A stretch of DNA of 64,000 nt, from positions 1 through 64,000 of the forward strand of contig JAHLLM010000013.1 in NCBI GenBank assembly GCA_020444175.1, given 5' to 3'. The translations under genes and the position numbers were made by a program. The notes under the pieces were generated by a model. It worked only from the letters and a program-made list of their open reading frames with translations. It was not told the origin of the DNA and did no database searches. This document shows positions 26,037 through 61,549 of the stretch, in pieces (position 1 is the first letter of the stretch; every line of letters begins with the position of its first letter). The stretch is from Desulfobulbaceae bacterium (GTDB lineage Bacteria; Desulfobacterota; Desulfobulbia; Desulfobulbales; SURF-16).

Positions 26037-26137
26037 GACGGTTTCGTAAAACCCCCCTCAAGCGCCGCCGACAAGTATGTAACTTGTTGATATTGCGTTG
26101 GCGGATGGTCAGCTTGAGAGCTTTTTGCGAGACCATC
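26037..26137 (-). mobile_element. 101-bp MITE-like palindromic element, copy A
   Basis: Reverse complement matches copies at 54804 and 61449 with about 2 differences; flanked by aatttt (26031-26036 and 26138-26143). Confidence 0.9.
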
Positions 26138-26211
26138 AATTTTCATGTTTCAAAGATTGACGATTTTGCCAACAATAGCTCAACCGCTGCTGCAAATCCT
26201 GCAGGCTGTTG

Positions 26212-26267
26212 AAAAATCTAGCGAAGGAAGCGGAGACAAGGATTTATGCCCTTCAAGATGAAGAGGT
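26212..26267. repeat. 'CAGGCTGTTGAAAAA' repeat fragment
   Basis: CAGGCTGTTGAAAAATCTAGCGAAGGAAGCGGAGACAAGGATTTATGCCC resembles 25825.. and 29467.. Confidence 0.6.
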
Positions 26268-26313
26268 TATATGACACATGCTACCTGGCCTTCTGCGAAA
26301 AAACTCATTGAAC

Positions 26314-27594
26314 TTATTGTGACCCGCCCCTGATCGGTAGAGTAACCTTGAATCGGCTCCCTTGGTCAAGCTGACTTTGAACGGTAATTTTTCCGTCGTG
26401 TTTTTCGATAATATCATAAGCAATTGAAAGCCCCAGTCCGGTTCCCTTGCCCACTTCCTTGGTGGTGAAAAACGGCTCGAAGATCCTGTTGAGCTTGTCT
26501 TCCGGGATGCCGCAACCGGTGTCCGCTATCTCGACGGCGACGGAATCTTCCTGCCGGTAGGTTCGGATATCAATCTGACCTTGGTCCTCGATGGCCTGAG
26601 CCGCGTTGATCAAAAGATTCATAAACACGTGGTTCAACTGAGCTGGATTACACAAAATCTCGGGCAGATCCCCAAAGGTTTTATTCAAAGTGGCCTTGTC
26701 TTTCAACTCGTTCCAGACAATCTGGAGAGTGCTTTCCAACCCCTGATTGAGGTTTGCCAGCTTAAATTTTTCCTCGTCGAGCCGGGCGAAACTTCTCAGG
26801 TTCTGAACGATCTGTTTCATTCGATCTCCGCCATCCAGTGATTCGTTCACAATCTGTTCGATATCGTCCAGGATCATATCGATACCTGAAGCCTGGCGCT
26901 GTTTTTTAACCTGAGCAAGCAAATCATTTGCCGTATTGGACGCTGCTGCAGGGCTACTGCGGATGGTCTCTTCCTGAGCCTGCAAAAACGCCCTAACCTT
27001 CTTTGAATACTTGCCCAGGGTGCTCAGATTGCTGATGATAAACGCCAAGGGATTGTTGATCTCATGGGCGACACCGGCGGCAAGTTGACCTATGGAAGCC
27101 ATCTTTTCTTGTTGCAGCATCCGGATATGGGCGGTTTTCAGATCCAGGTAGGCTTTTTCAAGCTCCCTCGTCTTTTGATTCAGCTGGTCGTTGAGTTTGC
27201 CAAGCTCGATGCTCCTCTCCTTGACCTCCTCCGCCAGGAAGACACGACCCGTCACATCCCGGCATACCTCGCCCCCCGCTACGATGCTTCCCTTATCGTC
27301 GAACAGTGGGAAACAGGAGTTTTCCAGGTGGGACATGACACCGTTCGCAGTGATGGCTGTCCGGTGCACCACGATGGATTCGCCCGTCTCGAAGACCTTG
27401 AGCACGCCGCAGCCTTCGCAGACCTGATCGCGCTCCTCATAGGCGAAGTAGCATTTTAAGCCGATCCGATCGCCGAACGCCTGTGTCATGGCGGCGTTCT
27501 GGTAAATGATGTTGAAATCCCGATCCTGGATCGTGACTCCATCGGGGATGGAATCCAAGACCTGTTTATGCAGAGAAAAATCCACCATCTCCAT
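26314..27594 (-). CDS. PAS sensor histidine kinase
   Basis: 426 aa; PAS, '[13 protein letters not shown]', '[12 protein letters not shown]', '[34 protein letters not shown]'. Confidence 0.93.
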
Positions 27595-27661
27595 GACTCC
27601 CTTTTCACGTGGCCCAGCATTGAATCGCCGGGTCTGACACTGCGGGAACAGTGGGCAGTGC

Positions 27662-29326
27662 CTATTTACGACGAAGCTCCGCCCTCACAGCCAACCCCAA
27701 TTTTTCAATGACATAGGGTTTTCTCACATAAGCCCCCGCACCAAGTGCCTGAACGTCATGCACTCGATCAGACTCTGAAAAACCGCTGACAATAATCGCT
27801 TTCTGTTTAGGAAAAATCTCAATGACACGTGTATAGGTGTCAAGTCCGTCCATGCCGGGCTCCATGATCATGTCCAAAACCATTAAATCAACATGATGCT
27901 CAGTCAAGCAGGTGATTGCCTCCTCGCCGCTGGATACACTTGACACATTATAATTCAGCGCCCTGAGCATACGGACTGCCAGATCGCGCTGCTCACTTAC
28001 ATCATCCACCACAAGAATGGATTCACCGTTGCCCATATATTCAGACATTGACACAGGAACTGCTTCAGGTGAAATTCCTTCCCGTGTTACTGGAAAATAT
28101 AAGGTGAAAGTACTCCCTTTCCCTTGTTCACTCTGAATATTGATGTATCCATGATGATCCTTCACGGTACCCCAAACCACGGCCAATCCTAAACCTGTTC
28201 CGCTTCTCCCCATAACCTTTTTTGTATAAAACGGCTCAAAGATGCGCTTCAGATCAGCCGCACATATTCCCTCCCCTGTATCTGAAACTGAAAGAACCAC
28301 ATAGTCACCCTTTCGAACTTTATCATATCCATGAATCGGCTTGTCCAGATAGCAATTGGCCGTCTTGATGGTCAAAATGCCCTCTTGCGGCATGGCCTCA
28401 ACAGCATTCGATGCCAGATTGAACAACGCCTTGCTGAGATGTACCGGAGACCCGGAAATGCACAACAGGTCAGGTTCAAGGTCGATGTTGATTTGTATGG
28501 ACGGATGGTAGGAATGGAGTCCTTCAAACTCCGGCGACAATTGTGTTTCGGTGATGATACTGTTCAGGTTGAGAACTTGTCGGCCTGAGACCCCCCTCCT
28601 GGCCATGGTCAGAAGATCATCCACAATCGCGGCAGCCTTCTGCCCCCCTTTCATAATGTTCGTAAGGTAGGGTAGGGACTGGCTTGAGCTGTCAGTAGTC
28701 AGCAAGAGTAGTTGAGCGTAGCCGACAACAACACCCAGCACATTGTTAAGATCGTGGGCAACGCCGCCTGCCAAGGTTCCCAAGGCCTCCATCTTCTCCG
28801 CCCTGTGCAATCGTTCTTTCAGCTTTTGTTTTTCCTTCTCAGCCTTATGAAACGCCTCTTCTGCCCGCTTACGTTCGCTGATATTCATGAGGACCGCCAC
28901 TCTGGCCTTATGTCCTCTGTATTGCATCTCTCGAACCCTAATTTCAAGTGGCAACCTGCTACCATCTTTTTTCAGCCCAACAGATTCATATGGACCAAGA
29001 CTCCCCGAGGAAACCTGTTTCATCAGAGAATCAAGAGCTTCAGGGGCCACGGTCAACGGTAATGCCTGTCTCCCAATCAACTCCTCTGGTTCGTAGCCGA
29101 ACATCTCAAAATATTGGTCGTTTGCGCTAAGCAGAAGACCTCCATCGTGAATAATCACGGCATCAAAGGCGGCACCTGAAAGACAACGAAACTTTTCTTC
29201 ACTTTCCCGTAGTGCTTCCTCCGTCCGTTTACCCTCTGATACTAATTTTTCCATTTCCTGAATTCTCTGTTTTAAGGCAGATACTTCTTTTAGCAGTTCT
29301 TGATTCATTCGAGCTTGATCGTTCAT
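27662..29326 (-). CDS. Hybrid sensor histidine kinase (PAS-HK-receiver)
   Basis: 554 aa; PAS, 'GGVAHDLNNVLGVVVGYAQLL', 'GTGLGLAVVWG', C-terminal receiver 'ILVVDDVSEQRDLAVRML...LMVLDMIMEPGMDGL'. Confidence 0.94.
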   Translation of the reverse strand: MNDQARMNQELLKEVSALKQRIQEMEKLVSEGKRTEEALRESEEKFRCLSGAAFDAVIIHDGGLLLSANDQYFEMFGYEPEELIGRQALPLTVAPEALDSLMKQVSSGSLGPYESVGLKKDGSRLPLEIRVREMQYRGHKARVAVLMNISERKRAEEAFHKAEKEKQKLKERLHRAEKMEALGTLAGGVAHDLNNVLGVVVGYAQLLLLTTDSSSQSLPYLTNIMKGGQKAAAIVDDLLTMARRGVSGRQVLNLNSIITETQLSPEFEGLHSYHPSIQINIDLEPDLLCISGSPVHLSKALFNLASNAVEAMPQEGILTIKTANCYLDKPIHGYDKVRKGDYVVLSVSDTGEGICAADLKRIFEPFYTKKVMGRSGTGLGLAVVWGTVKDHHGYINIQSEQGKGSTFTLYFPVTREGISPEAVPVSMSEYMGNGESILVVDDVSEQRDLAVRMLRALNYNVSSVSSGEEAITCLTEHHVDLMVLDMIMEPGMDGLDTYTRVIEIFPKQKAIIVSGFSESDRVHDVQALGAGAYVRKPYVIEKLGLAVRAELRRK

Positions 29327-29466
29327 AGTTTATCCGGCAAGAAAGAAATAAGGAGCTTACTTTGAATAAAATTAGAGATACTTTAGCTGCGATCTTCACG
29401 TTTTTTGAAATACTGTCTTACAAGGTGTAATGTCCTGTTCTTTCCGCTTGTTGGTCAACACTTTAG

Positions 29467-29655
29467 CAGGCTGTTGAAAAATGTAGCGAGCGTAGCGGAG
29501 ACAAGGAAAAATGAGGCGAAAAAGCACAGTTTACATGGAGTAAATGAGCATTTCGGAGTCTCACTCTGTTCGCTTACCTGAGCCGAATTTTGACGCAGTA
29601 TCAGCAGATAGCGAACAAAGTGAGACTTCGAGCGCAGTAGTTTTTCAACAGCCTA
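29467..29655. mobile_element. MITE-like nested palindrome with 14-bp terminal inverted repeats
   Basis: AGGCTGTTGAAAAA ... TTTTTCAACAGCCT; inner inverted repeat GTCTCACTCTGTTCGCT (29558-29574) / AGCGAACAAAGTGAGAC (29610-29626). Confidence 0.75.
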
Positions 29656-29873
29656 TTAGGCATTTCATCAATATGATTTTAGCAAGTTCGCATGTAAAGA
29701 TCAGCTCCTTTCTTTAAAGATCGCCAACCGTCGTCATCAACAAATTGATCCAGCTATGAAAGAGTGACACCAGGTAAATCATTGAAAATAACAATGGCAG
29801 AAAGAAATTATGATTCAGATACTAAACGCAAAGCAATTTCAGCGGACAGAGGAAGCAAGTCGAACGCTAGCTG

Positions 29874-30014
29874 GTGCCTGTCCATAAATGGTCTTTTTAC
29901 TCAATATCTGCGTCTTGCTCAAAAAATCATCCTCGGAATATCACATATATGCCTCCGGTAATTTTTTTCGCAGTCCTTGATCTTGAACAAAAATCCTCAT
30001 CTCTGGACAGGCAC
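29874..30014. mobile_element. 141-bp MITE / IS-end-derived element
   Basis: Perfect 11-bp terminal inverted repeats GTGCCTGTCCA/TGGACAGGCAC; right ~80 bp has a diverged copy at 39630..39716. Confidence 0.75.
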
Positions 30015-30034
30015 TAACTGAAAGAGCAGAAAAT

Positions 30035-30676
30035 TCAGGAAATTGTTATATCAAATTTTGTCAGTTCCCATTGTTTTTCATACTCCATGATGTAAGCAAC
30101 CTTATCTATAAATTCAACATCATATCCAAACCTTTTGAGAATATGAAAAGCAACCTCAATACCGGAGGTAATACCACCACCAGTGATGATACGACCGGAA
30201 TCAACGACCCGGTGTCTATCAATAATGCAATGTGGAGCAAGCTGAGCAAGACGATCAATAGGAACTATAGGTTCATTGGGGTCACCATTTTTTCTGTTTG
30301 TTGCCTTTAGGCCATCAAGAAGTCCTGCAACACCATAAACCCAAGACCCGGTACAAACACTGACAAGGAGTGTTTCCGGCGGAACTGATTTTACAAAACG
30401 CAGTAATCTTTTATTATGAATTTCCGGTCGTGTTCCTATACCGCCAGGAATAAGAAAGGCATCCATACTCGGATTGTCATTTAATCCATATTTCGGAATA
30501 ACTCTCAGTCCTCCCGTTGCTACGACAGGCAGGTTGGTATCACCCACCAAAAATGTTTCAAGCTCAGGATCCATTCTTTTGGCTACGGCAAAAACTCCGG
30601 TGGGGCCGGCCCAATCAATAACTTCCGCGTTGTCGAAAATGTAAACACCTAATCTTTTGTTCATTGCAACCTCCAT
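30035..30676 (-). CDS. DJ-1/PfpI family (GATase1-like) protein
   Basis: 213 aa; 'LGVYIFDNAEVIDWAGPTGVFAVAKR', 'DAFLIPGGIGTRPEI', 'LLVSVCTGSWVYGVAGLLDGLKAT'. Confidence 0.92.
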   Translation of the reverse strand: MEVAMNKRLGVYIFDNAEVIDWAGPTGVFAVAKRMDPELETFLVGDTNLPVVATGGLRVIPKYGLNDNPSMDAFLIPGGIGTRPEIHNKRLLRFVKSVPPETLLVSVCTGSWVYGVAGLLDGLKATNRKNGDPNEPIVPIDRLAQLAPHCIIDRHRVVDSGRIITGGGITSGIEVAFHILKRFGYDVEFIDKVAYIMEYEKQWELTKFDITIS

Positions 30677-30690
30677 TTTCCTTACAGCTT

Positions 30691-30707
30691 ACAGACCAGT
30701 CTGTCTG
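30691..30707. promoter_or_regulatory. Putative TetR operator 1
   Basis: ACAGACCAGTCTGTCTG upstream of the DJ-1/PfpI gene; shares ACAGAC-N2-GTCTGT with two other sites. Confidence 0.65.
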
Positions 30708-30758
30708 CAAACCGATGTTGCTTTGAGTAAGTTTTCATAAACCGCCAAAACAAAAAAT

Positions 30759-30774
30759 ACAGACAAGTCTGTCT
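30759..30774. promoter_or_regulatory. Putative TetR operator 2
   Basis: ACAGACAAGTCTGTCT between the tetR-like and pfpI-like genes. Confidence 0.65.
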
Positions 30775-30791
30775 TGGTGTGCTTAAAAAAA

Positions 30792-31376
30792 TTACTCGCC
30801 TATTAATGCTTCCACGGCTTTCTGTGCAGCTTCAATGGGCCAAACTGAACTGTAGTTTTGGCTAGATACGATGGCACCCTCCACCAAGATATAGACGATT
30901 TTTGCTAACTCTACCGGGTCAGAGCTGGTCGGTTCATCTTTTGATTCAAAAAAATCAGCCATGGTTTCAAGAATATATTTTTGCAGGCTATTTTTATGTT
31001 TTACAACTTCATTTCTTATCTCTGAGTCAGCTAAGGGGACTTCCGATGCTATATTCAAGAACGCACATCCGCGATAATTACTTTCCTGCATCCACTCTTT
31101 AAGAAATGAAAATATACCTGTCAGCTTTTTTCGGGGGGCAGAATCGCTCTTAATACTATCAGTCAGCCACCCCATCCAGATTTTATGCCGTGCTTGCAAG
31201 TATGCAAGACACAAAGCTTCTTTTGATGGAAAATTGGCATAAAATGTTGCTTTTGCCACCTGTGACTCTGAGATGATTTGATTAATGCCGGTAGCTAAAT
31301 ATCCCTGCTTATAAAATAGATTTAATGCCGTTTCTATTATTCGATCTCGAGCCGTATTTTCATTTTTAGTAGCCAT
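30792..31376 (-). CDS. TetR/AcrR family transcriptional regulator
   Basis: 'MATKNENTARDRIIETALNLFYKQGYLATGINQIISESQVAKATFYANFPSKEALCLAYL' HTH; start set at 31376. Confidence 0.93.
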   Translation of the reverse strand: MATKNENTARDRIIETALNLFYKQGYLATGINQIISESQVAKATFYANFPSKEALCLAYLQARHKIWMGWLTDSIKSDSAPRKKLTGIFSFLKEWMQESNYRGCAFLNIASEVPLADSEIRNEVVKHKNSLQKYILETMADFFESKDEPTSSDPVELAKIVYILVEGAIVSSQNYSSVWPIEAAQKAVEALIGE

Positions 31377-31393
31377 GCGACAAGAATAAACCA

Positions 31394-31407
31394 GACAGAC
31401 CTGTCTG
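31394..31407. promoter_or_regulatory. Putative TetR operator 3 (autoregulatory)
   Basis: ACAGACCTGTCTGT palindrome immediately upstream of the TetR start codon. Confidence 0.65.
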
Positions 31408-31510
31408 TCAAGAAGCACTTGCAAAATATTCCCTTTTCAAGAAAAAAGGACGCCAAGCCCACCGGATTGTGCGGAGCAAGGCGGGACACAATTCCGAGTA
31501 AAATGACAGG

Positions 31511-31894
31511 TTATACCGAATTTATTACATTATTAATTTCATTCTCAGATCGAACAACAACAACCTTATGCTGTGGATTTGTAATTTCATGAAATGTTTG
31601 CAGCATTCTCCCAATTCCGTACGCTAAATTTTTTTCACAAACAAATATTGTCGCATCGATTAGACGCTTGTTTTTCGGCTCTTGATAACTCTCTGTAATT
31701 CTACTACTTTCGGTAAATGAAATTTTAAAATCAGTGACATGTGTGAAATATACTATTTCAATTGCACCAGGCTTTATTTCTTTATCGTTTTCCAGCCTGT
31801 CAAAGTATTCAATTGTTTGCCCTAAGTCCAACACTCCTTTCGGGAATGCTTCTATGCGCCTTCCATCTAAAGATACTTTATATTCAATTGACAC
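31511..31894 (-). CDS. Conserved hypothetical protein, possibly SpoIIAA/STAS-like
   Basis: 127 aa ORF without overlapping alternatives; fold guess weak. Confidence 0.5.
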   Translation of the reverse strand: MSIEYKVSLDGRRIEAFPKGVLDLGQTIEYFDRLENDKEIKPGAIEIVYFTHVTDFKISFTESSRITESYQEPKNKRLIDATIFVCEKNLAYGIGRMLQTFHEITNPQHKVVVVRSENEINNVINSV

Positions 31895-32174
31895 ATCGAC
31901 ACCTGTTGTTCTGTTTAGAGTTCATGGTATAAGGTCCCCCGGATGACAGGCACCATGGAGCGATGGACATCCGGCAGACGATAAGTGGAAAATTTTCCAT
32001 GCCAACATGCCACAGAGATGCCTTTTACCCCACCTATTGTGATATTATAGCATTAAAAAAGAACCTAAATTCAAGACAAAACTCCGGGAGTTATGGCGAG
32101 GTTGGACAAAAAAACCTGAACAACAAAATCAAACATTGTTCAGGTTTCATATCTTGATGCCGGAGCGAGAGACG

Positions 32175-32777
32175 CTAAGCTGCTTCAGGCCACGGAAATT
32201 CCGGATGATCAAGCAACTTGATCATCCTCTGTTTTTTCTTGGTGTGCTTATCGTGGAAATCCACGAGTTTGACAATGGCGTCGAGCATTTCCTCTTCAGT
32301 CGCTCCGCTTATAATTCGCCGGGCAGTTTTGGGATGCGGGCCGCCTTTTCCTCCGGCGTAGACATCAAATCCGCCCCTGGTCGCCACAACGCCTATGTCC
32401 GTTGTCATGACACCGGAGCAACAGAGTGTGCATCCGGAAACGGCAATTTTGAACTTGGGTTTTGTCGTGGTTTTGTACTTGAATTTCTCAAGAATTTTAT
32501 TTGAGATATCCTCGGTTTCCACAACACCGAGGTTGCAATGGTCTTTTCCCACGCACACCCTGGGCAGAGGGAATTTGCCGGGTGCCTTGAAATCAGCGCC
32601 AAGGGCGGCAAGTTCAGCCTTAACCTCATCGGCATTTTCTTCGGGGACATTAATCAGTCGCAGGTTCTGAGCCGTTGACAGATATACTCCCAGATTAAAC
32701 TTTGCCGCCATTTCATGGGCTTTGTTCATAATATCGAGGGGCAGCCGACCGGCTGGAAGTAAAACCGTTATATTCAT
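32175..32777 (-). CDS. Nitrite/sulfite reductase-like half-domain with 4Fe-4S cysteines
   Basis: 200 aa; ferredoxin-like half domain then CVGKDHC and 'GCTLCC' (C-x5-C ... C-x2-C-C) Fe-S pattern. Confidence 0.8.
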   Translation of the reverse strand: MNITVLLPAGRLPLDIMNKAHEMAAKFNLGVYLSTAQNLRLINVPEENADEVKAELAALGADFKAPGKFPLPRVCVGKDHCNLGVVETEDISNKILEKFKYKTTTKPKFKIAVSGCTLCCSGVMTTDIGVVATRGGFDVYAGGKGGPHPKTARRIISGATEEEMLDAIVKLVDFHDKHTKKKQRMIKLLDHPEFPWPEAA

Positions 32778-32933
32778 AGTATTTCACCTTTATTTGGAGA
32801 GATTGAAATAGGAAATCGTTTAAAAAAAATCCTATACCCTAATTTTTCCGCCCTTTCAAAAAAAATTTATAGCCCTTTCAGTTCTCAACGAGTAAATAAC
32901 CATGGATATAAAGAATTTACAGGGAGGAATAAA

Positions 32934-33365
32934 ATGGGACACCACGCGCACAACCCCTATGGAGCAGGGGATAAAGCGGTCAGGGCTATTGACCGGAAAA
33001 GAGAAAAAGAGCGTAGATTCATGCTCTCGGCGGCTTTTAAGTATGCCGATGACCTGGCCATGAAGCTTGTTCAGCGCCTGCTTGACAACAAGATTATCGA
33101 AACAACTTCTGAAAGTGCAATCCGGGAAGTTTTTGCCAACCTGCTGCAAAACCTGCAGGACATGGAAGAGTTTGATATGAATTTCAAGATTGCGCCGATC
33201 CGCCAGCTTACGGTTAATCCGAATTTCATCAGCCTCTATCTGACCCAATACATTATCGAAGATCTTATTAACCATTCTAAAATTGATGATGTTTATGGAG
33301 ATGATATCGATATCTACAAAGCCGTTGATTCAGTAATGGATAAAATTCGTCCAAAAGAGAAATAA
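32934..33365 (+). CDS. Conserved hypothetical protein
   Basis: 143 aa; SD AGGGAGGAA upstream, predicted in a unit with the downstream radical SAM gene. Confidence 0.65.
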   Translation: MGHHAHNPYGAGDKAVRAIDRKREKERRFMLSAAFKYADDLAMKLVQRLLDNKIIETTSESAIREVFANLLQNLQDMEEFDMNFKIAPIRQLTVNPNFISLYLTQYIIEDLINHSKIDDVYGDDIDIYKAVDSVMDKIRPKEK

Positions 33366-33375
33366 AATCAACTCA

Positions 33376-34671
33376 ATGAGGAACTCAGCGCATCCAGACC
33401 AAATGCCGTGCCTGATTTTTGCCAATGAAAAAGGTGAAATCCTTGATTTTCCCGAGCTTGAAATGGCTGGTCGCAGCGGTTCCTGGTACTCCCGTCCTGA
33501 ACTGACCGACATCATTCCTCTTCCCGAAGGAAGCGATCTCTTTGTCCTGCCGGGAAGAGTTCCAATCGGTATTGAAAAAAACACAGGCGACCCGGTGCTT
33601 GTTGATGCCAACCCCTATGCACCCCATGAAGGGCTGCAGGCAGTAGCGGCCTTTATGGCCCCTGCGCATACTGCGCTTTTCAGTGCCGCATTCGAGAAAA
33701 CCGATCCTGATGTCACTCCCCTTCCTCTTTTTGCCTACACTGCGGTTGGCTGGCTGGATGATCGTTTCTGGGTGTGCGGTTTTCGGAGTGATAATGATAA
33801 CCGTCAGGATTTCGCCGGATTCAATGACGGGCAGATTCGCAAAAAAACACTGAAAAAGCAGAGTGACTGTCCAAAAAACAGACTTATCCAGCATCTTGGC
33901 AAGTGCAGTCTCACTTACAGTTGCCCTGCCGCCAAAAACTATTTTTTAGGACGCTATGAGGCCCCCCTTCCCACTTCGCCTGCCTGCAATGCCAAATGCG
34001 TGGGATGCATTTCCCTGCAACCTTCAGGCTGCTGCCCATCCACCCAGGAACGCATAAAATTTGTTCCCAAACCTGCTGAAATTGCCGAAATTGCCGTGGC
34101 CCATCTGCAGACAGCCCAAAGGCCTGTGGTCAGTTTCGGGCAGGGCTGCGAGGGAGAGCCTCTTCTGCAGGCGGACACCATCGAAAAATCAATACGCCTG
34201 ATCCGCAAACAGACAGACAAGGGCACCATTAACTTAAACAGTAATGCCAGCCTGCCAGAGGCCGTGGAACGCCTTGCCGCGGCAGGGCTTGACTCGATCA
34301 GGGTCAGCATAAACAGTGCCCGCAAGGGCTGCCACACCCTCTACTACAGGCCCCAGGGCTTTAATTTCAAGAATGTTCTGGAATCAATACTTGTGATGAA
34401 AAAAGCAGGACGCTTTGTTTCCCTTAATTACTTCATCCTGCCAGGATTTACGGACGATCCCGACGAATACGATGCCCTGTGCGATATCGTTGACCTCTAT
34501 CGTCCCGACCTGATTCAGCTACGCAACCTCAACATGGACCCGGACTGGTACTTTGAAGTTATCCAGCACCCGGCCAAAAAACCTCCCATGGGCATGCGAA
34601 ACTGGCTTGAAAAACTCAAAAAACGATTTCCGGCCCTGCAATTCGGCTATTTTAATCCGCCATTACGATAA
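33376..34671 (+). CDS. Radical SAM protein
   Basis: 431 aa; 'CNAKCVGC' (CxxxCxxC), 'QGCEGEPLL', 'LNSNASLPEAVERLAAAGLDSIRVSINSA'. Confidence 0.9.
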   Translation: MRNSAHPDQMPCLIFANEKGEILDFPELEMAGRSGSWYSRPELTDIIPLPEGSDLFVLPGRVPIGIEKNTGDPVLVDANPYAPHEGLQAVAAFMAPAHTALFSAAFEKTDPDVTPLPLFAYTAVGWLDDRFWVCGFRSDNDNRQDFAGFNDGQIRKKTLKKQSDCPKNRLIQHLGKCSLTYSCPAAKNYFLGRYEAPLPTSPACNAKCVGCISLQPSGCCPSTQERIKFVPKPAEIAEIAVAHLQTAQRPVVSFGQGCEGEPLLQADTIEKSIRLIRKQTDKGTINLNSNASLPEAVERLAAAGLDSIRVSINSARKGCHTLYYRPQGFNFKNVLESILVMKKAGRFVSLNYFILPGFTDDPDEYDALCDIVDLYRPDLIQLRNLNMDPDWYFEVIQHPAKKPPMGMRNWLEKLKKRFPALQFGYFNPPLR

Positions 34672-34764
34672 AAAAAGCCGAATACTTCGCTTCCAAAAAA
34701 GTATTTCTCGCTCTCCGGCACCCTCTCCTTAGACTGCAAACACTTTCCAGGTTGGTTTCTCTTT

Positions 34765-36447: not shown

Positions 36448-36872
36448 TTAACAATAGCTATCTTTTTAAAAGTATCGTCGTAATGAGCAATATTAATATA
36501 GGTTATGGCATCTTCATGATTGCTCACGTAATTTATTGCTTCCTCATCGTTTTTTACATAAACAGGAAGCATACTTTTGCCGCTGAAAAGAACTTTCCTC
36601 CAATAATTGGAAAACTGTGATGGTGACTTCTTGAGCACATCTCCGGTAAACTGAGAATGCACTTCTTTATTTATGTTGACAACAATCTGAATTGAAGTGC
36701 CGGTCGGCCATTTTTTCATTTTCCCCAGAAAAATCCTTTTGACTTCTTGAGAGGTCAGTTGCTCGACCGGACTCTTTTTATGTGAGATGAGCACATATTC
36801 TTCTCCATATGCAGTTTGACTGCTCATCAGCAGGGACAGGAAACTCATTATGATCACTGTAATTTTCTTCAT
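36444..36872 (-). CDS. PstS-like periplasmic phosphate/oxyanion-binding domain protein
   Basis: 142 aa; signal peptide; 'LTSQEVKRIFLGKMKKWPTGTSIQIVVN'; overlaps the DGC start by 4 bp. Confidence 0.85.
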   Translation of the reverse strand: MKKITVIIMSFLSLLMSSQTAYGEEYVLISHKKSPVEQLTSQEVKRIFLGKMKKWPTGTSIQIVVNINKEVHSQFTGDVLKKSPSQFSNYWRKVLFSGKSMLPVYVKNDEEAINYVSNHEDAITYINIAHYDDTFKKIAIVK

Positions 36873-36887
36873 ACCTGATCAGTTTCC

Positions 36888-38438: not shown

Positions 38439-38467
38439 ATCAAGCACTGGTGCAGATGTCCAGTTTC

Positions 38468-49923: not shown

Positions 49924-49996
49924 GTAACGCAGGGCTCTATAACAGCATTGGAGGGTGCTGAAGGGTTTAACAACAGGTCATTGGAGGAGGCAACCG

Positions 49997-50947: not shown

Positions 50948-50975
50948 CTCCTTCTTTTATTTTAAAAAAGAAGTT

Positions 50976-51010
50976 TGCGGCAGGGACAGTGTGTCCCTGC
51001 CGCTTTTTTT
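50976..51010 (+). terminator. Rho-independent terminator of the PEP-CTERM gene
   Basis: GCGGCAGGGACA GTG TGTCCCTGCCGC TTTTTTTT. Confidence 0.95.
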
Positions 51011-51295
51011 TATCAACCACGCGGTGCCCCACACTTGTTCGGGAAAGCACACTTTTTTGCAAAATTATCCCCAAAGTACCCCCACACACGTAACATGCTG
51101 AAGTCATGGAACTTATTTTCATATTCCTAAATATTTAAAAAATGCTGAAAATTGAGCACCAATCTTAATTTACTTGATTTCTCATCTTTATTACCTTCAT
51201 AATACATTATAATCTCAGACAAAAACTAACAAAGAGATACCATGTGGTCATCTTCAGCACAACAAACTCCTTCAAAATCATTTTTTTGAATCACA

Positions 51296-52345: not shown

Positions 52346-52392
52346 CAGCAGCTGCGAATTTCACGGATACCGGACCTGCGGAGAACTATTTC

Positions 52393-54045
52393 ATGAAGCT
52401 TAAATTGAAAAAAAGCATAGGTTTTAAAATGGCTGTTGCCATGACATTCGGCCTTTTTATTGTGATCAGTTTTTTCTCTCACACAAGCGTTCGTTTATCT
52501 GAAAAACGCCTGCTGGCCATGGCGGAAGATGAATCGGCAAAAATGAGCAAGGCAATTAAAAGCAGCCTTGACACAGCCATGCTGAACAACGAAGAGGGTG
52601 GAGTACAGGGCATCATCGACGCTCTGGGCCAGGAAAGCATGGTCCGTGATATAAAAATTATTGATCTTAACGGTGAAGTAAAACGTGCCGAAAACAAAGC
52701 CGACATCGGCATTGTACTTGACCAGGGAGAAAAAAGCTGCGCGTTGTGCCATGCAGGTTCCCAGGTCTCCAACCAGAACCTCTCTGTTTTGTTTACCCTT
52801 AACAACGGCACACGCATTCTCAGAAACGTCAATCCCATCGAAAATGAAGACCGCTGCCATGGCTGCCACGATCCGCAGAACAGAATCCTCGGCAAACTCC
52901 TGGTTGACTTTACCACAGATGATATTGAAAAAATGGTGGTGGACAACAGAAAAGTCCTTATCCTGTCGGCAGTGGCGACTCTGTTTACCTCTGTCCTTCT
53001 CTGCTTTCTCCTGGCCACAGTGCTCGTCAAAAATCCGCTTCGAAATCTTCTTATTAAAATGAAGAACGCGGAAGGAGACATGGACCAGCAGGAAGATATC
53101 ATCGGCGAGGATGAAGTTGCCGTTCTGGACAGCACTTATGACTCCCTGATGACCGCTATCGAAGAACGAAACCAAAAGATAGAGCAGCAGATGAATGAGC
53201 TGCTTGCCCTTTACAATGTCAGCGAAATACTGAACAAAAGTACTTCCATAGAAGACAATGTGGACCTCATTCTCAAAGCACTGCAAATAGGTTTTCACGT
53301 TGAGAAATGCGCCATTCTCCTGCTGGACGGCCCATCTTCATTCGAGCTGAAAGGCTGCCTCGGCCAGGACAGAGATAAAGCCCAGGAGCTGACAGATTAT
53401 CTTGCCAGTCCTGAACAGCTTGAAAAGATTATGCAGGGGAACACCTTCATGGCCCAGGGGTGCGGCGAGAACAAGGATGCATTCCTGGTCGTGCCCCTGA
53501 AGGCGGCTAACACTATCATTGGAGTGATTGCCGTCTGCTCAGTGACTGGTACGGAGATAACCGCGGATGATCTTCAGAAATCTTTTGCCATTATCGCCAC
53601 TTCGCTTGCTCCTCACTTTCAGATCGGCCTGTCCCAGACCGAAAAGCAGGAAATGCAGATAAGCCCCTTCAACTCTTTTATCTCTTCAGTGGATAACGAA
53701 ATAGAAAATGTCCGGGAATATATGGGCTCTCTGTCCCTCGGCACCTTGCAAGTAACTAATTACCAGGACCTCTGCCAGACCAAAGGCGTAGAGCAAGCCT
53801 CCCATCTTGTTCAGGAGACTGCCGCCCAGTTTTCAGCCAACCTGAGCGCCGTTCACCAATGCACGCGTCTTTCAGAAAATGTCATTGCCGTTATTCTGCC
53901 CATGCTTGATTCCTTTGAGGCAACCGATGCTGTCCAACCAGTGCTGTCTCTTCTTAACACTGAGGCTCAACTGGACTTGAAACTTGCAACCTTCCCGGAC
54001 AATGGAGAAAACGGGCTTGAATTACTTCATATCCTGCAGGGATAA
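52393..54045 (+). CDS. Heme-binding membrane sensor (CxxCH x2, HAMP, GAF-like, degenerate GGDEF-like C-term)
   Basis: 550 aa; TM1, periplasmic CALCH and CHGCH, TM2, HAMP-like linker, GAF-like region. Confidence 0.8.
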   Translation: MKLKLKKSIGFKMAVAMTFGLFIVISFFSHTSVRLSEKRLLAMAEDESAKMSKAIKSSLDTAMLNNEEGGVQGIIDALGQESMVRDIKIIDLNGEVKRAENKADIGIVLDQGEKSCALCHAGSQVSNQNLSVLFTLNNGTRILRNVNPIENEDRCHGCHDPQNRILGKLLVDFTTDDIEKMVVDNRKVLILSAVATLFTSVLLCFLLATVLVKNPLRNLLIKMKNAEGDMDQQEDIIGEDEVAVLDSTYDSLMTAIEERNQKIEQQMNELLALYNVSEILNKSTSIEDNVDLILKALQIGFHVEKCAILLLDGPSSFELKGCLGQDRDKAQELTDYLASPEQLEKIMQGNTFMAQGCGENKDAFLVVPLKAANTIIGVIAVCSVTGTEITADDLQKSFAIIATSLAPHFQIGLSQTEKQEMQISPFNSFISSVDNEIENVREYMGSLSLGTLQVTNYQDLCQTKGVEQASHLVQETAAQFSANLSAVHQCTRLSENVIAVILPMLDSFEATDAVQPVLSLLNTEAQLDLKLATFPDNGENGLELLHILQG

Positions 54046-54187
54046 ATGCTCTTTACCGTGAACATCAAGAAGACTTGTTGCGGAGGACTTATCACGACGA
54101 TGTGCCATGGAGAAAAGGACAATCAAAGTCATAAGGAAAAGAAGAAGGCCCCTGACTTGACTGTCACAGTAAAGCAGAAAATACAGG

Positions 54188-54751
54188 TCAGCCGATGGTG
54201 GCTGACTCAATGTGAGTTGTACTGATGCAGATGAAATTGTGGGGCAGAGCTACTTCCTTCTTAAACCACTTGCCGTCCTTGTTGTAGATACTTATCATCT
54301 GCACATTCGTGAGTGGAATGAACTTATCATGGGACTTCTTTTTAAACAGTCCGTAAAAATCCCCTTGAATATCATAAAATGAATTTCCAACGACATTGGT
54401 GATGACATTGATCCGCTGCATTTTCTCATGCGCCTTGGAGACCATGGATGAAGCTCTTTTCTTCTCTTTCTCATCACCAATAGTCTGGAAATCGTCATAA
54501 AAATAAAATACCTCGGAAAGCTTCAATTGAATTTTATTAAATTTTCTGAATACCGCTGAATCATCAAAAGTCAGTGCCGCATCATACATCAGTATGGCGT
54601 TTTCAAAACATTTCTCACCAGGATTTTTCCAAAATACGTTCGAGCTGTTGAAAATGTCCGTTGTCCTTAATGCTGCGTTAGGTATATCAATGAGCCCTGA
54701 ATACTTTCTCCCCAAGGATGTTACAACCGCTACTTTTCTCTGTTCCGCCAT
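54188..54751 (-). CDS. Conserved hypothetical protein
   Basis: Start at MAEQRKVAVVTSLGRKYSGLIDIPNAALRTTDIFNSSN; 187 aa. Confidence 0.65.
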   Translation of the reverse strand: MAEQRKVAVVTSLGRKYSGLIDIPNAALRTTDIFNSSNVFWKNPGEKCFENAILMYDAALTFDDSAVFRKFNKIQLKLSEVFYFYDDFQTIGDEKEKKRASSMVSKAHEKMQRINVITNVVGNSFYDIQGDFYGLFKKKSHDKFIPLTNVQMISIYNKDGKWFKKEVALPHNFICISTTHIESATIG

Positions 54752-54803
54752 GGTAATCGCCCGGTTATCTCTCTCTATTTTTAACAAAAAAATTTCTAAT
54801 TAT

Positions 54804-54904
54804 GATGGTCTCGCAAAAAGCTCTCAAGCTGACCATCCGCCAACGCAATATCAACAAGTTACATACTTGTCGGCGGCGGTTGAGGGGGTTTTTACGAAAC
54901 CGTC
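54804..54904 (+). mobile_element. 101-bp MITE-like palindromic element, copy B
   Basis: Identical by eye to copy C; flanked by aattat (54798-54803 and 54905-54910). Confidence 0.92.
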
Positions 54905-54948
54905 AATTATACTTGACGCAAGCATGTTTCATAACGAACCACCCTGTA

Positions 54949-56391
54949 TTAATACACAAAATCTTCCAGGGCTTCTTTTTCAAATCTTTCAACGCGCTCT
55001 CTCCCTTCAACAAGAAATTGAGCGGCGTAAGAACTCAAGGATTCAGCCGCTTCAGCAATTTCAGCGACAATTGTCTTTGTTTTGTTTGAACCGATTTTTG
55101 CCAATCCAGCAAGAGCAACAACACGTAACTCAAAAAAATCCTTCCTGTCCAAAGCAATTTCCTGCAATTTCTTTTTAACACAATTGGGACTTCCATGGAC
55201 AAGGTATACCAAGGCTCCATAGCGGATATCATCCCGGTTGCTTTTATCTAGAAGCTTTATAGCAGCAGATGTAGCCTTATGATTTTTCATTTTGGCGAGA
55301 ACATATAAGGCAGTCTTCAAAAGCTGCCCCTGGAGTTTCTCTGCGACCACAAGCTCCACCGCAAAATCAAGAGCTGTCTGATTATGGTAGAGGATGAGCG
55401 ACTTGAGAGCCCGTCGTGAAACAGCCTCCTGATAGGCATCCATGTTCTTCAAAATACTCAAAACAACTGTTTCTCCACCCTTGTCCCCAATACTTACGAT
55501 GGAATCAATGCAGGCTATTTGAATTCTGGGATCCTCGTATTCGTCAAACTCCAGCATGGTGGCCAGAGCTGGAACCGCCTGAGAGTTTTTCAGCCTGCCA
55601 AGTGAAGCTATCGCTTCAAGGCGCAGAAGCAGTGGCAAATTTCCATCCTGAGCAATGGAACAGAGCTTTTCAACAGCTCGCTCGTCATTTTTTCTACCAA
55701 GCATCTTGACGGCATTGACCTGTTGCTCATCATCTCCTCTTTCATAGAGGGTAAGCAGTATAGCTACCGGATCCAATCGCTTCGATTCAAACTTTTCATA
55801 GATATTTTGATTTTCGAAAGGCAGCTCTGCCTTTCGTCGCACTCGGTGTATTTCCTGTCCACCCCATTTTCTGGCCAAGGGCTTAACTCCGAGATTATCT
55901 GAAGCAAAATCCTGCCTGCCGGCTTTCTCCAGATAGCGCACAAAGGTATCGCAGGTCCACACCTCTCCAGGACGAAGTATCGGTTCCAGCCGCGAGGCGA
56001 GATTAACCTGTGCCCTGATGACTGCCCCGTCACCCGGAATAGTCCCGCTACTGTAAAACCTGCTGCTGTGCAGAGAAATGCGAACAGGCAGTCGAGGCAG
56101 TTGCAATTTGTCGAAATCATATTCCTTGCAGAAATCTCTCACCTTAAGGGCGCAGCTTGTTGCAGAAACTGGATTGGAAAATACGCAGCAAACTGTTCCC
56201 CCCACTGATGTAGAGGACAATGGATCAAAAGCGGAGATCACAGAAAAAAGGGTCGGATGGAACTGTTCAAAAAAACAACGTAGATGAGCACCACCTGCCA
56301 AGTCAGCAAATCCCTTGATATCAGCAATAAGCAAAAAAACCGTCTGGCACTCTTTTCCAGATGCTTTATCAACTTCAGTTTTTTGAGTCAT
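54949..56391 (-). CDS. Class III nucleotidyl cyclase-like domain (degenerate) fused to HEAT repeats
   Basis: 480 aa; 'FLLIADIKGFADLAGG', 'VGGTVCCVFSNP', 'VIRAQVNLASRLEPIL', then HEAT-like repeats 'LPLLLRLEAIASLGRLKNSQAVPALATMLEF'. Confidence 0.8.
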   Translation of the reverse strand: MTQKTEVDKASGKECQTVFLLIADIKGFADLAGGAHLRCFFEQFHPTLFSVISAFDPLSSTSVGGTVCCVFSNPVSATSCALKVRDFCKEYDFDKLQLPRLPVRISLHSSRFYSSGTIPGDGAVIRAQVNLASRLEPILRPGEVWTCDTFVRYLEKAGRQDFASDNLGVKPLARKWGGQEIHRVRRKAELPFENQNIYEKFESKRLDPVAILLTLYERGDDEQQVNAVKMLGRKNDERAVEKLCSIAQDGNLPLLLRLEAIASLGRLKNSQAVPALATMLEFDEYEDPRIQIACIDSIVSIGDKGGETVVLSILKNMDAYQEAVSRRALKSLILYHNQTALDFAVELVVAEKLQGQLLKTALYVLAKMKNHKATSAAIKLLDKSNRDDIRYGALVYLVHGSPNCVKKKLQEIALDRKDFFELRVVALAGLAKIGSNKTKTIVAEIAEAAESLSSYAAQFLVEGRERVERFEKEALEDFVY

Positions 56392-56989
56392 GTTTTTAAT
56401 ATTGTCGATTGAAGTTCAGTGCTGCACGGGTACATTTTTTTTACGCATATGCCATTTTAAGCAAAATGAAATATCAAGGTCAATATTTTCAATTTATTTC
56501 TCCTGACAACTTACTGTTTTTTTTACAACTTCCCCGCAAGACAGGAAATCATCAAGAAGAAAAACAAATTACTAAACATACTATTTCAAAGCAGACTGAC
56601 ATGGCAAGCAATCATTTTTTTCGACTCTGGACTCAAGGAGCCCGACTGGCGCATCAGCTCCGGAGATTCAGGGAAAACTTTGTAAGAATTCAACTTTTCT
56701 TCTGATGAATATTTGTGTTTTCAGACAATCGCTGAAAAAAATATTTTTCCTGCTCGAAGTTGCGAACCCGCTCCACGCATAGAAAAAACCTATCCACACT
56801 ATAGGTGCGACAATTTGCCACATTTCCATAATTAAAACCCATGGTATAGTACCACACTGTGTTAACTGGAATATTATTAGGTATTATTATCAGCAAGTAA
56901 GACTAGATATGGAAATCCGGTTAGCGTAATAATTTTGGAATGATCTAACAGCGTTTGGATCATGAAAATGAAAATGATGGAGGAGATTC

Positions 56990-57784
56990 ATGAAAGAAGG
57001 AAACAATGACTGCAAAGGATTATCACGACGTAAAATGCTTATCGGAACAGGTGCCTTGGCTGCTGGAGCAGCCCTGACGCAGTTCGGTGGTTTTATTAAA
57101 CCAGCCATGGCAACTGGCGGAAAAACAGAAAAATGGCCCTGGCCATATGAAAAACTCGATCCCGCAAAAACAGCAGAAATCTGTTACAATGAATGGTACA
57201 GAGTTTTCTGCGGTGCTGCTGTAATCAATAGTGTTGTCAGTCAGTTACGGGAAAAAGTAGGTGAGCCCTACACCTCTTTCCCTGCAGATGCATTCGTATT
57301 CCTGGAAGGTGGACAGCTTGGTTGGGGAACAATCTGCGGATCCCCTGCCGGAGCCAATATCGTTGCCAACCTCATTATCGGCCCCCGCATCTCCGGAGCC
57401 CATGAGGGTCACCTGATCGCTGCTGACATCATGCAATGGTACTCTGAAACAGCTCTGCCTACCTTTACACCGAAACACCCAAAAATTTCAGCAACCCTGC
57501 CGACAACCACAAGTCAGTCTCCGCTTTGCCATATTTCTGTTGGTAAATGGATGAAGGAAGCCAATAAAGCCCTGAAGAGCCCTGAAAGAAAAGATCGTTG
57601 CGCACGCGTTGCCGCCAGCACCGCCTACCGCCTGGTAGAATTGCTCAATGATTGGAAAGACGGCAAATACGAATCGACTTCCGACTTCAGCTGCGCAAAA
57701 GAGAATGGGATCACCGGACAGTTCAATTGCATGGAATGCCATGGCAACGATGTCCCTGAAGCACCTTCACCAACAAAATCATGA
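56990..57784 (+). CDS. Tat-exported split-Soret cytochrome c-like / C_GCAxxG_C_C-like redox protein
   Basis: 264 aa; Tat motif 'LSRRKMLIGTGALAAGAAL', 'SPLCHISVGKWMKEA', single C-terminal CMECH heme site. Confidence 0.75.
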   Translation: MKEGNNDCKGLSRRKMLIGTGALAAGAALTQFGGFIKPAMATGGKTEKWPWPYEKLDPAKTAEICYNEWYRVFCGAAVINSVVSQLREKVGEPYTSFPADAFVFLEGGQLGWGTICGSPAGANIVANLIIGPRISGAHEGHLIAADIMQWYSETALPTFTPKHPKISATLPTTTSQSPLCHISVGKWMKEANKALKSPERKDRCARVAASTAYRLVELLNDWKDGKYESTSDFSCAKENGITGQFNCMECHGNDVPEAPSPTKS

Positions 57785-57926
57785 TAGTTTGGTAACTATT
57801 CAGCAAGCCAAAGGATCTTGCCTCAAGGCATGCTACGAACACGGTTTTACCTCCCTTTGACTGTGTTATGCACTTACATGCAGGCAAACATCTGAAGTAC
57901 TGCTGAGCTGAATAGAAGCAGTCATC

Positions 57927-57987
57927 AAACACAGAAACCCCTTCCTGGGCCGGAAATATACCGGACCAAGTAGGGGTTTCTGTGTTT
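57927..57987. terminator. Bidirectional hairpin terminator
   Basis: AAACACAGAAACCCCTT ... TAGGGGTTTCTGTGTTT. Confidence 0.8.
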
Positions 57988-58724
57988 TAAGAAAAATCAG
58001 GCTCGTATAGTTTGGCCATTTGCGAGGAATATGCACCACCTGGTTGATCATAAATGAAAAAAGGAGGCAGAATGGTCAGTTCCTCCCCGCCGTTCTTGAC
58101 AACTTCCAGCATCACAAGCCTCCCCACGCCACCAGGATAACTGTGAACAACCTGAAGTTTTTTGGGCTCAAGCCCGGCCTGTTTCAGGGTGGCAACAAGA
58201 ACAGCAGCACGATTAGCAGGATAAATCAGTGCTGCTTTCCCCCTGTTTTTGAGACTGTACGATATGGCCCGGGATATATCGGCAAAGTCAGCCGCAATTT
58301 CATGGCGGGCAATTGCCTGCTCACTATCAGGATTAAGTCTGCCTGTGTCGATTTTTCCATAAGGAGGGTTGCAAACCACCCAATCAAAAATCTCCGCAGT
58401 AAACAGGGAGTTCATTTGACGCAAATCTCCCTGTTTTACATGAAAACGATCTTTGAAATTATTTAAAGAAATATTTTGCTTGATAAGGGAGACAAGGTCC
58501 GGTTGAAGCTCCAGGGTGGTGAGTGAAATCGCAGGCCATCGGTAGGCGAGAATGAGAGAAATCACACCACACCCCGCCCCCAGATCCAGGATTACATCTT
58601 TTTGGCGGGGATGAATAAAGTGGGCCAGCAAGACGGCATCAATTGAAAAACGATATCCCTCACTGTGCTGCACACAGGCAAGTCTGCCGTCAAAAAGAGT
58701 GTCCTCGGAAAGCTGTCCGGACAT
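57987..58724 (-). CDS. tRNA1(Val) A37 N6-methyltransferase-like (TrmN6/YfiC family)
   Basis: 245 aa; 'QHSEGYRFSIDAVLLAHFIHPRQKDVILDLGAGCGVISLILAYR', 'DWVVCNPPYGKIDTGRLNPDSEQAIARHE'. Confidence 0.92.
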   Translation of the reverse strand: MSGQLSEDTLFDGRLACVQHSEGYRFSIDAVLLAHFIHPRQKDVILDLGAGCGVISLILAYRWPAISLTTLELQPDLVSLIKQNISLNNFKDRFHVKQGDLRQMNSLFTAEIFDWVVCNPPYGKIDTGRLNPDSEQAIARHEIAADFADISRAISYSLKNRGKAALIYPANRAAVLVATLKQAGLEPKKLQVVHSYPGGVGRLVMLEVVKNGGEELTILPPFFIYDQPGGAYSSQMAKLYEPDFS

Positions 58725-58738
58725 GTCAACCCGGCAAA

Positions 58739-60097
58739 TTACTCGACAACTTCGTCTGCAACTATTTTATTGATCAAAAGTCCGGTGAGAATTTTCGGAT
58801 AAAAATAAGTTGATTTGTGGGGCATGATAAGATTCTCATCTGCAATTCTTTTAACCTGGGCCACAGGTGTATGATTCATCAAAAAAAGGATGGGGCTCTT
58901 ACCACCATCGCCTGCAACATCTTTCACGGCCGCATCAAGAGCCTCATCCGGATCACTGTAGTAGCTCACCAGGCCCTCATTGTCGCATTTATCATGACCC
59001 AGACCTAAAAGCCGATCAATAATAAGATCGGACAAGACAACAACATCAAGTTCCTGCAAGGCGTCGGGAATATCCGGACCAAGTGTTTTTGACATGATAT
59101 TCGGCTTTAAAGTGAGAAGAAAGCAGCGGTCCGAAGAGGGTTCATACATGCCGAAAACGGTTTCTTCCGTCCCCCTTTCCTCCATCCTTTCCAAGGCTTG
59201 CTCAATAAGAGTTTCTCTGCTGCCGCCGCCTATTTCGGTCAGCTCAAAATAATCGCCCATTTTTTCCTGCAAGGCATCAATACCAATTGACTCAGGAAAA
59301 TGAACGAGCCTATGGGTTGGCAGAACGGAAAGACCGGGGTCTTCCATGGGGCAAAGATACATCATAATATGATTATAGGGACTGCTGGCAGCAACCTTGC
59401 CCTGGCGCTTTTCCATTAACTCCCGCAACTGCAAGGCAGTTGTATAGCGATGATGGCCGTCCGCTATATAAAGCGATTTTTCATTGAACGCTTCCTGAAC
59501 TCGCTTGATTACGTCACTGTTTTTTACAGCCCAGAGAGAATGAATGCAGCCGTCCTGGTCTTCAACCCGGCAAAGGGGTTCGTCAGGGCAGGCTCCTTCC
59601 AGAAGCGACATTATTTTCCCTTCATTATCCGGATACAGTGAAAAAATCTGACTAAACTGAGCCTGGCATGTGTCAATAAGACGCAACCGGTCATCAGTGA
59701 CACCACGAAATGTCTTTTCATGGGGCTTGACTATTCCTTCCTCAAATTCAGCAAGTTGTACCAGTGTCACCAGTCCTTTTCTGGTAAAAACACGTCCATT
59801 TGCCAGGGTGTACTCTGTCTGATAGAGGTAAATGGATAAATCCTGGTCACGAATAAGAATCTCCTCATCCTGCCAGAGCCCGAATATTTTTTTAGCACTT
59901 TCGTATCGTTCTGTAGACGGTTGATCACCGGCCTGCTTGGTAAGATCAAGCTGAATCATGTTATATGGATTTTTCGACATGAGCGCAGCCTGGGCCTTTT
60001 CATCAATAACATCGTAGGGCGGCGTCACAACATCTTCCATGCGATTAATTTTTTTCAAATTATAGCGAAGGCCTCTAAAAGGGGCGATTTTAGCCAT
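58739..60097 (-). CDS. DUF1015 family protein
   Basis: 452 aa; 'PFRGLRYNLKKINRMEDVVTPPYDVIDEKAQ', 'LYIADGHHRYTTALQLRE'. Confidence 0.93.
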   Translation of the reverse strand: MAKIAPFRGLRYNLKKINRMEDVVTPPYDVIDEKAQAALMSKNPYNMIQLDLTKQAGDQPSTERYESAKKIFGLWQDEEILIRDQDLSIYLYQTEYTLANGRVFTRKGLVTLVQLAEFEEGIVKPHEKTFRGVTDDRLRLIDTCQAQFSQIFSLYPDNEGKIMSLLEGACPDEPLCRVEDQDGCIHSLWAVKNSDVIKRVQEAFNEKSLYIADGHHRYTTALQLRELMEKRQGKVAASSPYNHIMMYLCPMEDPGLSVLPTHRLVHFPESIGIDALQEKMGDYFELTEIGGGSRETLIEQALERMEERGTEETVFGMYEPSSDRCFLLTLKPNIMSKTLGPDIPDALQELDVVVLSDLIIDRLLGLGHDKCDNEGLVSYYSDPDEALDAAVKDVAGDGGKSPILFLMNHTPVAQVKRIADENLIMPHKSTYFYPKILTGLLINKIVADEVVE

Positions 60098-60226
60098 GGA
60101 ACTTCCTCTCCTTCTTACTCAATGGATATTTAAACTTTGCGAATAATACTATTTATGATTAAATTGCGAGTTTCAAATATCATACTTTACTGCAAATTGT
60201 GACAAAAAACATCAGGAGAACTCTCT

Positions 60227-60607
60227 ATGTTTGACATTTTTATAAAAACCCATTTCTCAGCAGGGCATCACCTGCGCAACTATCCAGGTAATTGCGAAAA
60301 GCCCCATGGACACAACTGGAACGTCAAGGTTACCGTCAGGGCGACTGAGCTTGACGAACTCGGCATGGGTATTGATTTCCGCACTATCAAAAATGCGGTA
60401 AACAAGGTGATGGATGACATTGACCACTGTGACCTGAACGAGCACAGCGCTTTCCTAGACAGGAATCCATCCTCGGAAAACATTGCTGTTTACATCTTTG
60501 AAACATTGAAACAGGAACTCTCTTCAGAACGTTATCACCTGCATTCAATCATGGTGGGCGAAACAGATAGCAGCGGTGTGGTTTACCATGGCCCATCCGC
60601 AGCCTGA
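60227..60607 (+). CDS. queD: 6-carboxytetrahydropterin synthase
   Basis: 126 aa; 'THFSAGHHLRNYPGNCEKPHGHNWNVKVTV', 'MGIDFRTIKNAVNKVMDDIDHCDLNE'. Confidence 0.95.
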   Translation: MFDIFIKTHFSAGHHLRNYPGNCEKPHGHNWNVKVTVRATELDELGMGIDFRTIKNAVNKVMDDIDHCDLNEHSAFLDRNPSSENIAVYIFETLKQELSSERYHLHSIMVGETDSSGVVYHGPSAA

Positions 60608-61289
60608 TACCATCGACCCATTGCATCTTCAGGTTTCCGAACTTTTTTACTCTATACAGGGGGAATCGACTTTCGCCGGTTACCCCTGTGCCTTTATACG
60701 ACTGGCCGGCTGCAATCTCCGCTGCTCCTACTGTGATGCCCGTTATACATACGAGGAACCGTTCAGACCTCTGCAGCTTAATGAAATCATCAATTTTACG
60801 GAAAAATATCCTGCGGCCCTGGTGCAGATAACAGGAGGAGAGCCCCTCATCCAGCAGGGCACCTATCCATTACTGGAAAAACTCCTGCTGGCCGGTCGTC
60901 TTGTGCTGCTTGAAACAAACGGCAGTATCAGCCTGAAAGATGTGCCGGATGATGTCGTGAAAATCATGGATTTCAAGTGCCCCGGCAGCGGGATGTCTGA
61001 AAAGATGCATGTTGCCAACCTCAAAATGCTTTCCCCGGCTGACGAGCTGAAATTTGTTATCAGTTCAAGAGGAGATTATGAGTGGGCTGTCAACTGCCTT
61101 TATGACCACATTCCGGATGTTAATAACCCTGTCCATATTAAGAACCGGGTAAAAGTGCTCTTCTCACCAGTGACAGGGGCATTGGACCAAAGCGAACTTG
61201 CCCAGTGGATTCTTGACGACGGGCTTCTTGTTCGCCTGCAACTGCAGCTCCACACCATTCTGTGGCCAGCAAAGACAAGAGGCTTCTAA
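60588..61289 (+). CDS. queE: 7-carboxy-7-deazaguanine synthase (radical SAM)
   Basis: 'VSELFYSIQGESTFAGYPCAFIRLAGCNLRCSYCDARYTYEE'; overlaps queD by 20 nt. Confidence 0.95.
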   Translation: MAHPQPDTIDPLHLQVSELFYSIQGESTFAGYPCAFIRLAGCNLRCSYCDARYTYEEPFRPLQLNEIINFTEKYPAALVQITGGEPLIQQGTYPLLEKLLLAGRLVLLETNGSISLKDVPDDVVKIMDFKCPGSGMSEKMHVANLKMLSPADELKFVISSRGDYEWAVNCLYDHIPDVNNPVHIKNRVKVLFSPVTGALDQSELAQWILDDGLLVRLQLQLHTILWPAKTRGF

Positions 61290-61448
61290 CCTCTTCTTTT
61301 TTCCGCATACATACACACCAGTTTACATCTCGCACCCATACCTCAAACACCGGGAGTTCAAGTTGATTTATCTGTCTCTGCAGCACAAGCAATGCGGGTT
61401 CCTGCTTTAGCGGACTCACACTGTGCCAGCGAATAATCAGCCAAATAT

Positions 61449-61549
61449 GATGGTCTCGCAAAAAGCTCTCAAGCTGACCATCCGCCAACGCAATATCAAC
61501 AAGTTACATACTTGTCGGCGGCGGTTGAGGGGGTTTTTACGAAACCGTC
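61449..61549 (+). mobile_element. 101-bp MITE-like palindromic element, copy C
   Basis: Identical by eye to copy B; flanked by aaatat (61443-61448 and 61550-61555). Confidence 0.92.

Follow-up and report, generated by a model that had tools for sequence, protein, structure and literature searches.

Three copies of a palindromic unit

The window analysed here, positions 1 to 64,000 of contig JAHLLM010000013.1 of a Desulfobulbaceae bacterium (assembly GCA_020444175.1), contains three copies of a 101-bp palindromic unit, named A, B and C. The unit is a non-autonomous transposon, a miniature inverted-repeat transposable element (MITE), which inserts precisely at AANNNT or AANNNTT with a duplication of 6 or 7 bp. 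Its copies, their flanks and the terminal repeats of copy B are as follows.

26031..26036, no strand: left target-site duplication of copy A, AATTTT, a perfect direct repeat in plus-strand reading
26037..26137, minus strand: MITE copy A, 101 bp, agreeing with B and C at 99/101 positions (98.02%)
26138..26143, no strand: right target-site duplication of copy A, AATTTT, a perfect direct repeat
54798..54803, no strand: left target-site duplication of copy B, AATTAT, a perfect direct repeat
54804..54904, plus strand: MITE copy B, 101 bp, the consensus sequence
54804..54820, plus strand: B-type terminal repeat GATGGTCTCGCAAAAAG, which each end of a broken insertion sequence (IS) at L005:517-1813 matches at 16/17
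54888..54904, minus strand: A-type terminal repeat GACGGTTTCGTAAAAAC of copy B
54905..54910, no strand: right target-site duplication of copy B, AATTAT, a perfect direct repeat
61443..61448, no strand: left target-site duplication of copy C, AAATAT, a perfect direct repeat
61449..61549, plus strand: MITE copy C, 101 bp, same sequence as B
61550..61555, no strand: right target-site duplication of copy C, AAATAT, a perfect direct repeat

These coordinates and strands agree with an initial annotation made from the letters of the window, which had also reported that B equals C, that A differs at about two positions, and that a perfect 6-bp repeat of its own bounds each copy. The imperfect inverted repeats that it placed at the ends are indeed seen, at about 17 bp each, as GATGGTCTCGCAAAAAG and GACGGTTTCGTAAAAAC; between them, most of the interior is self-complementary. 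No conserved open reading frame (ORF) is present in the unit, that is, it is non-coding. Copy B is located between two convergent genes, one for a 550-aa chemosensor-like protein and the other for a 480-aa HEAT-repeat protein; copy C has a radical-SAM gene on one side and a YkuD-like gene on the other. As had been noted, the window lacks the transposase: none with matching ends was seen there.

Copy number, target sites and an empty site

The genome (5,418,684 bases in 90 contigs) holds 40 full-length copies of the MITE at 97–100% identity, and three further matches that are weaker and partial. At least five additional copies are cut off by contig ends; the assembly therefore breaks at this repeat. 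Since 17 of the 40 full-length copies are identical to copy B, the recent mobility first suggested by the copies of the window is now supported genome-wide: the spread of the MITE to at least 40 near-identical copies is recent. The 101-mer itself was not found in close relatives (0 of 57 other genomes).

A perfect duplication flanks 38 of the 40 copies, of 6 bp in 22 cases and 7 bp in 16, and is imperfect in the other two. The duplications begin with A and end with T in 38/38, with A in second place in 36/38, which gives the target as AANNNT or AANNNTT. When left and right flanks of different copies were paired at random, a match of at least 6 bp occurred in 6.5%. The flanks differ among copies. 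The initial annotation was right about the duplication itself, but its constant length of 6 bp and its AAWTWT-like target have to be replaced.

Insertion is also seen at one copy, L020 (C71:85626), which sits within another high-copy repeat. Its flanks, joined after removal of one AATTATT, equal the uninterrupted loci L085, L051, L024 and L071 at 100% over 130–134 bp across the junction. These four loci are a paralogous empty site for L020, and they establish where the 101-bp unit begins and ends and that the duplication is 7 bp long. Together, the 38 duplications and the empty site with its single AATTATT bear out the call of a MITE.

Placement of the MITE is strongly intergenic. Judged at the empty site, only 2 of the 40 copies cross an ORF of at least 150 aa, whereas the share is 76% for random positions and 65% for AAWNWT sites; the flanks are also AT-richer than the genome sample (60% versus 54%). 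High copy number, intergenic location and a hairpin-forming unit would also suit REP-like palindromes dispersed by a transposase of the tyrosine (HUH/RAYT) type, and REP-like interiors, GTCATTCCGGCGAAAGCCGGAATCC among them, occur in some of the elements that share these ends. However, HUH transposition produces no target duplication. With 6–7-bp duplications at 38/40 copies and a proven empty site, this explanation is refuted for the present element, and we give it practically no chance.

Because of its inverted repeats the unit can form a hairpin, as the initial annotation had proposed. Its RNA fold beats 200 of 200 shuffles on both strands (z −3.7 on one, −4.9 on the other), and the fold of its single-stranded DNA has a z of −2.9. 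A hairpin stronger than the shuffles could also belong to a structured RNA or regulatory element that is copied by recombination and not transposed. Yet a consensus over 17 subfamily sequences keeps 7 pairs, of which 1 covaries, so a conserved RNA fold and role are not supported; the Rfam matches in the window are tRNAs and the signal recognition particle (SRP) RNA, nothing else; and unrelated flanks with duplications indicate insertion. We consider such an origin very improbable.

Base-by-base reading covered about 1.5 Mb of the 5.4-Mb genome, and a profile search of the sampled sequence revealed older MITE subfamilies that are about as long and whose identity goes down to about 70%; many have duplications of their own. 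In four older copies (L031:5108-5227, L100:8083-8196, L083:7728-7845 and L108:11509-11600) a CCCTNAAGGGCATAAATGCG-like stretch is added, or replaces other sequence, close to one of the ends, which looks as though the terminal repeat had taken up another small palindrome by exchange. At L106:7187-7393 two diverged copies stand head to tail with a single AAAATT in common between them, as expected if one copy inserted beside the other at an existing duplication. Elsewhere on this locus (L106:5608-6209) a small ParD/ParE-like ORF pair adjoins one end motif, with no sign of mobility.

Shared ends and a candidate transposase

The outer ~17 bp of the MITE, GAYGNNNTCGYAAAAAG, are common to many MITEs across the phylum that have other interiors and the same target. 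With up to one mismatch allowed, the window's own genome contains 218 occurrences of the end motif and 5 of a reversed control. Other genomes of the order carry elements of 116–276 bp with very different interiors, the same ends and 6–7-bp duplications. Phylum-wide, 56 of the 297 genomes contain GAYGGYNTCGYAAAAAGTCC, with a maximum of 101 occurrences in one genome, and the control gave zero matches. Scanning named genomes returned 80 loci, the majority of them in metagenome-assembled genomes labelled Deltaproteobacteria, Desulfobacteraceae, Desulfobulbaceae or Syntrophaceae. The two-ended elements among them (n=54) measure 59–220 bp, with 133 and 150–160 bp the commonest lengths, and 36 of the 54 show a 6–7-bp duplication versus 6 of 492 mispaired controls. 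In the viral collection we found Geobacter-like MITEs alone and no transposase. The initial annotation had delimited the element correctly, but had overlooked that its ends are shared across the phylum by unrelated interiors, and that a broken IS with such ends lies on another contig.

This IS was reached from two contig ends of genome G456, which start with GATGGTCTCGTAAAAAGTAAAAG... followed by promoter-like sequence and an ATG 132 bp from the end. Comparison with all loci led to L005 on contig C56 of the window's own genome, where the matching end is 34 bp from a MITE copy. The element, L005:517-1813, is 1297 bp long, is bounded by GATGGTCTCGTAAAAAGTATAAAAC and GATGGTCTCGTAAAAAGCTCAGCC and contains a transposase fragment of 296 aa, which starts 131 bp from the left end, close to the position of the ATG in G456. 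Its right end matches the first 20 bp of the MITE B end at 19/20. A stop and a shortened 3' part of the ORF suggest that this transposase is non-functional.

The fragment contains DUF772 (PF05598) and scores 39.8 bits with the IS1182 model NF033551, far below the curated cut-off of 270. Its best plasmid match is a full-length, unannotated Microvirga transposase (37% identity, 2e-56), with the domains DUF772 (PF05598), PF13751 and PF01609 (a DDE_Tnp_1/DDE_Tnp_1_6 C-terminus); this protein reaches 181.9 bits with NF033551, also under the cut-off. Judging from these matches, the putative partner group is divergent IS1182-like and not a proven member of IS1182. The Microvirga element has GACGGGGCGGTAAAAAGT within both of its terminal repeats. 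Relatives from haloarchaea, 24–25% identical across the fragment, have the ends GAGGGCACCGTAGAAAGGG and GACGGCACCGTAGAAAGGG, and the first of them, with GAGGGCACCGTAGAAAGGG, is flanked by the 7-bp duplication AGACCTT. Because a related motif at the ends and a duplication of 7 bp recur in such distant relatives, the group likely reads ends of the form GAYGG...CGTARAAAG.

We infer that the MITE is mobilised in trans by an intact IS1182-like transposase, and find it probable that this divergent group of DDE transposases, reading the outer ends, is what moved it. An enzyme with a DUF772 N-terminus would act on the 101-bp unit by recognising just its outer ~17–20 bp; the autonomous elements would be represented in this genome by the broken IS. 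Recognition limited to these positions would allow one enzyme family to mobilise many unrelated palindromic interiors. Towards the claim that a single divergent IS1182-like group has done so phylum-wide, solely through the same ~17–20-bp ends, we lean slightly. If true, these high-copy palindromes would belong to a single MITE superfamily, whose members have the end code and the AANNNT(T) target in common but not the interiors.

Four observations weigh against this assignment. No intact autonomous copy was seen in the genome, in the part read base by base. The flanks of the broken IS at L005 mismatch (AACTTCT versus AAATATT). The interiors of MITE and IS are unlike beyond ~20 bp, so the MITE is no simple internal deletion of the L005 copy. 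Finally, the Microvirga motif lies 18 bp inside the ends and the duplication there appears to be 9 bp, which means that ends and duplication length vary within the group.

The first two of these points would also be expected if another transposase moved the MITE, for example of a different DDE family or a Tn552-like transposon, with autonomous copies unsampled; mixed 6/7-bp duplications are known in other transposase families too. On the other hand, the sole transposase sequence inside matching ends is the IS1182-like fragment (that of L371, below, being excluded as nested), related motifs persist at the ends of distant homologues from two other lineages, and the ends differ in other transposases of this genome and order, namely ISNCY (CAGCAATTCCC, 9 bp), NF033593 (GTGTCTGTCC, TANNTA) and IS4-type (TCAGTAATGTCCGG). 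We regard another transposase as unlikely, with a modest chance left to it, and favour the divergent IS1182-like group.

Several candidates for the autonomous partner were rejected. Among the fetched loci, a search for a complete IS that has a duplication and matching ends separated by more than 0.4 kb returned just two distant pairs, neither of which is such an IS. One consists of two neighbouring MITEs. The other, L371:723-1936, is a MITE with the 7-bp duplication ATATGTT that is interrupted by a truncated IS of the NF033593 type, itself flanked by the duplication TAACTA; the transposase fragment there is no partner candidate because it was brought by the later, nested IS. NF033593 elements as such make 6-bp duplications. 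The ISNCY transposase at L166:1318-2693 (G000:C66) is frame-broken, and the CAGCAATTCCC ends and apparent ~9-bp duplications are those of its relatives; a 17/17 match, AATATCAACAACTTACA, between its 5' region and the interior found in one of the MITE subfamilies is probably fortuitous. The IS5-like element L377 has a superficial likeness at its ends, but is best read with a 4-bp duplication, and the ends of its relatives are different. The IS1182 transposase L163 of this genome shows no related ends and no similarity to the L005 fragment.

Known systems and other repeats

Correia, RUP and other bacterial MITEs are likewise small palindromic non-autonomous transposons, a likeness of kind; they have TA-type duplications and other transposases. 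By description, the nearest case for the partner is that of the ISMac2-related MITEs of Methanosarcina acetivorans (160–169 bp, 7–14 copies), also short, non-coding, with terminal inverted repeats and a likely IS1182-type partner (PMC3852290). In our system the partner is more divergent, the duplications are 6–7 bp at AANNNT(T), 40 copies are near-identical, and the ends occur phylum-wide on unrelated interiors.

In Geobacter uraniireducens the Chunjie MITE is described as having 38 full copies of 178–235 bp (PMC10969869). It resembles the 101-bp MITE by description in being high-copy and non-coding with terminal and direct repeats, probably in the same broad bacterial group, but is longer. 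Multicopy palindromic sequences are also known in G. metallireducens and G. bemidjiensis (PMC2700814, PMC2996986). These sources describe comparable high-copy intergenic palindromes, some with inverted-repeat ends; many, in contrast to the MITE, are treated there as regulatory or of unassigned function.

Both IS1182-derived MITEs and a high-copy MITE of Geobacter are therefore on record already, and the end code that unites many MITEs across the phylum is the most interesting extension. It links several palindromic repeats of the phylum to one terminal code and names a transposase that can be tested; the precise limits and the target rule of a very abundant repeat are now defined. Repeats of this sort break assemblies and similar ones have been taken as regulatory, a view that annotation as MITEs alters. 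With its many identical copies, the species is a candidate for direct observation of MITE transposition.

Other repeats were noticed as well. Five contig ends of G456 (L427, L429, L430, L447 and L448) have 135 bp in common that begin exactly at a MITE-type end and are preceded by five different flanks, the body being unassembled; the stretch leads into TGCTCTTTGACAACATAAATAA, which resembles an rRNA operon leader. In the window, a second high-copy MITE-like repeat of 183 bp lies at 24259-24441, with the ends TGATTACCACT...AGTGGTAATCA; a 137-bp form occurs too. It has about 28 copies in the sampled genome and flanking repeats that look about 9 bp long, and L020 is a copy of it with the 101-bp MITE inside. 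Another interspersed repeat, AGCGAGCGTAGCGGAGACAAGGATTTATGCCCTT..., ending near GTTTTTCAACAGCCTGCTAGA, is found at L053:490 and L121:15137.

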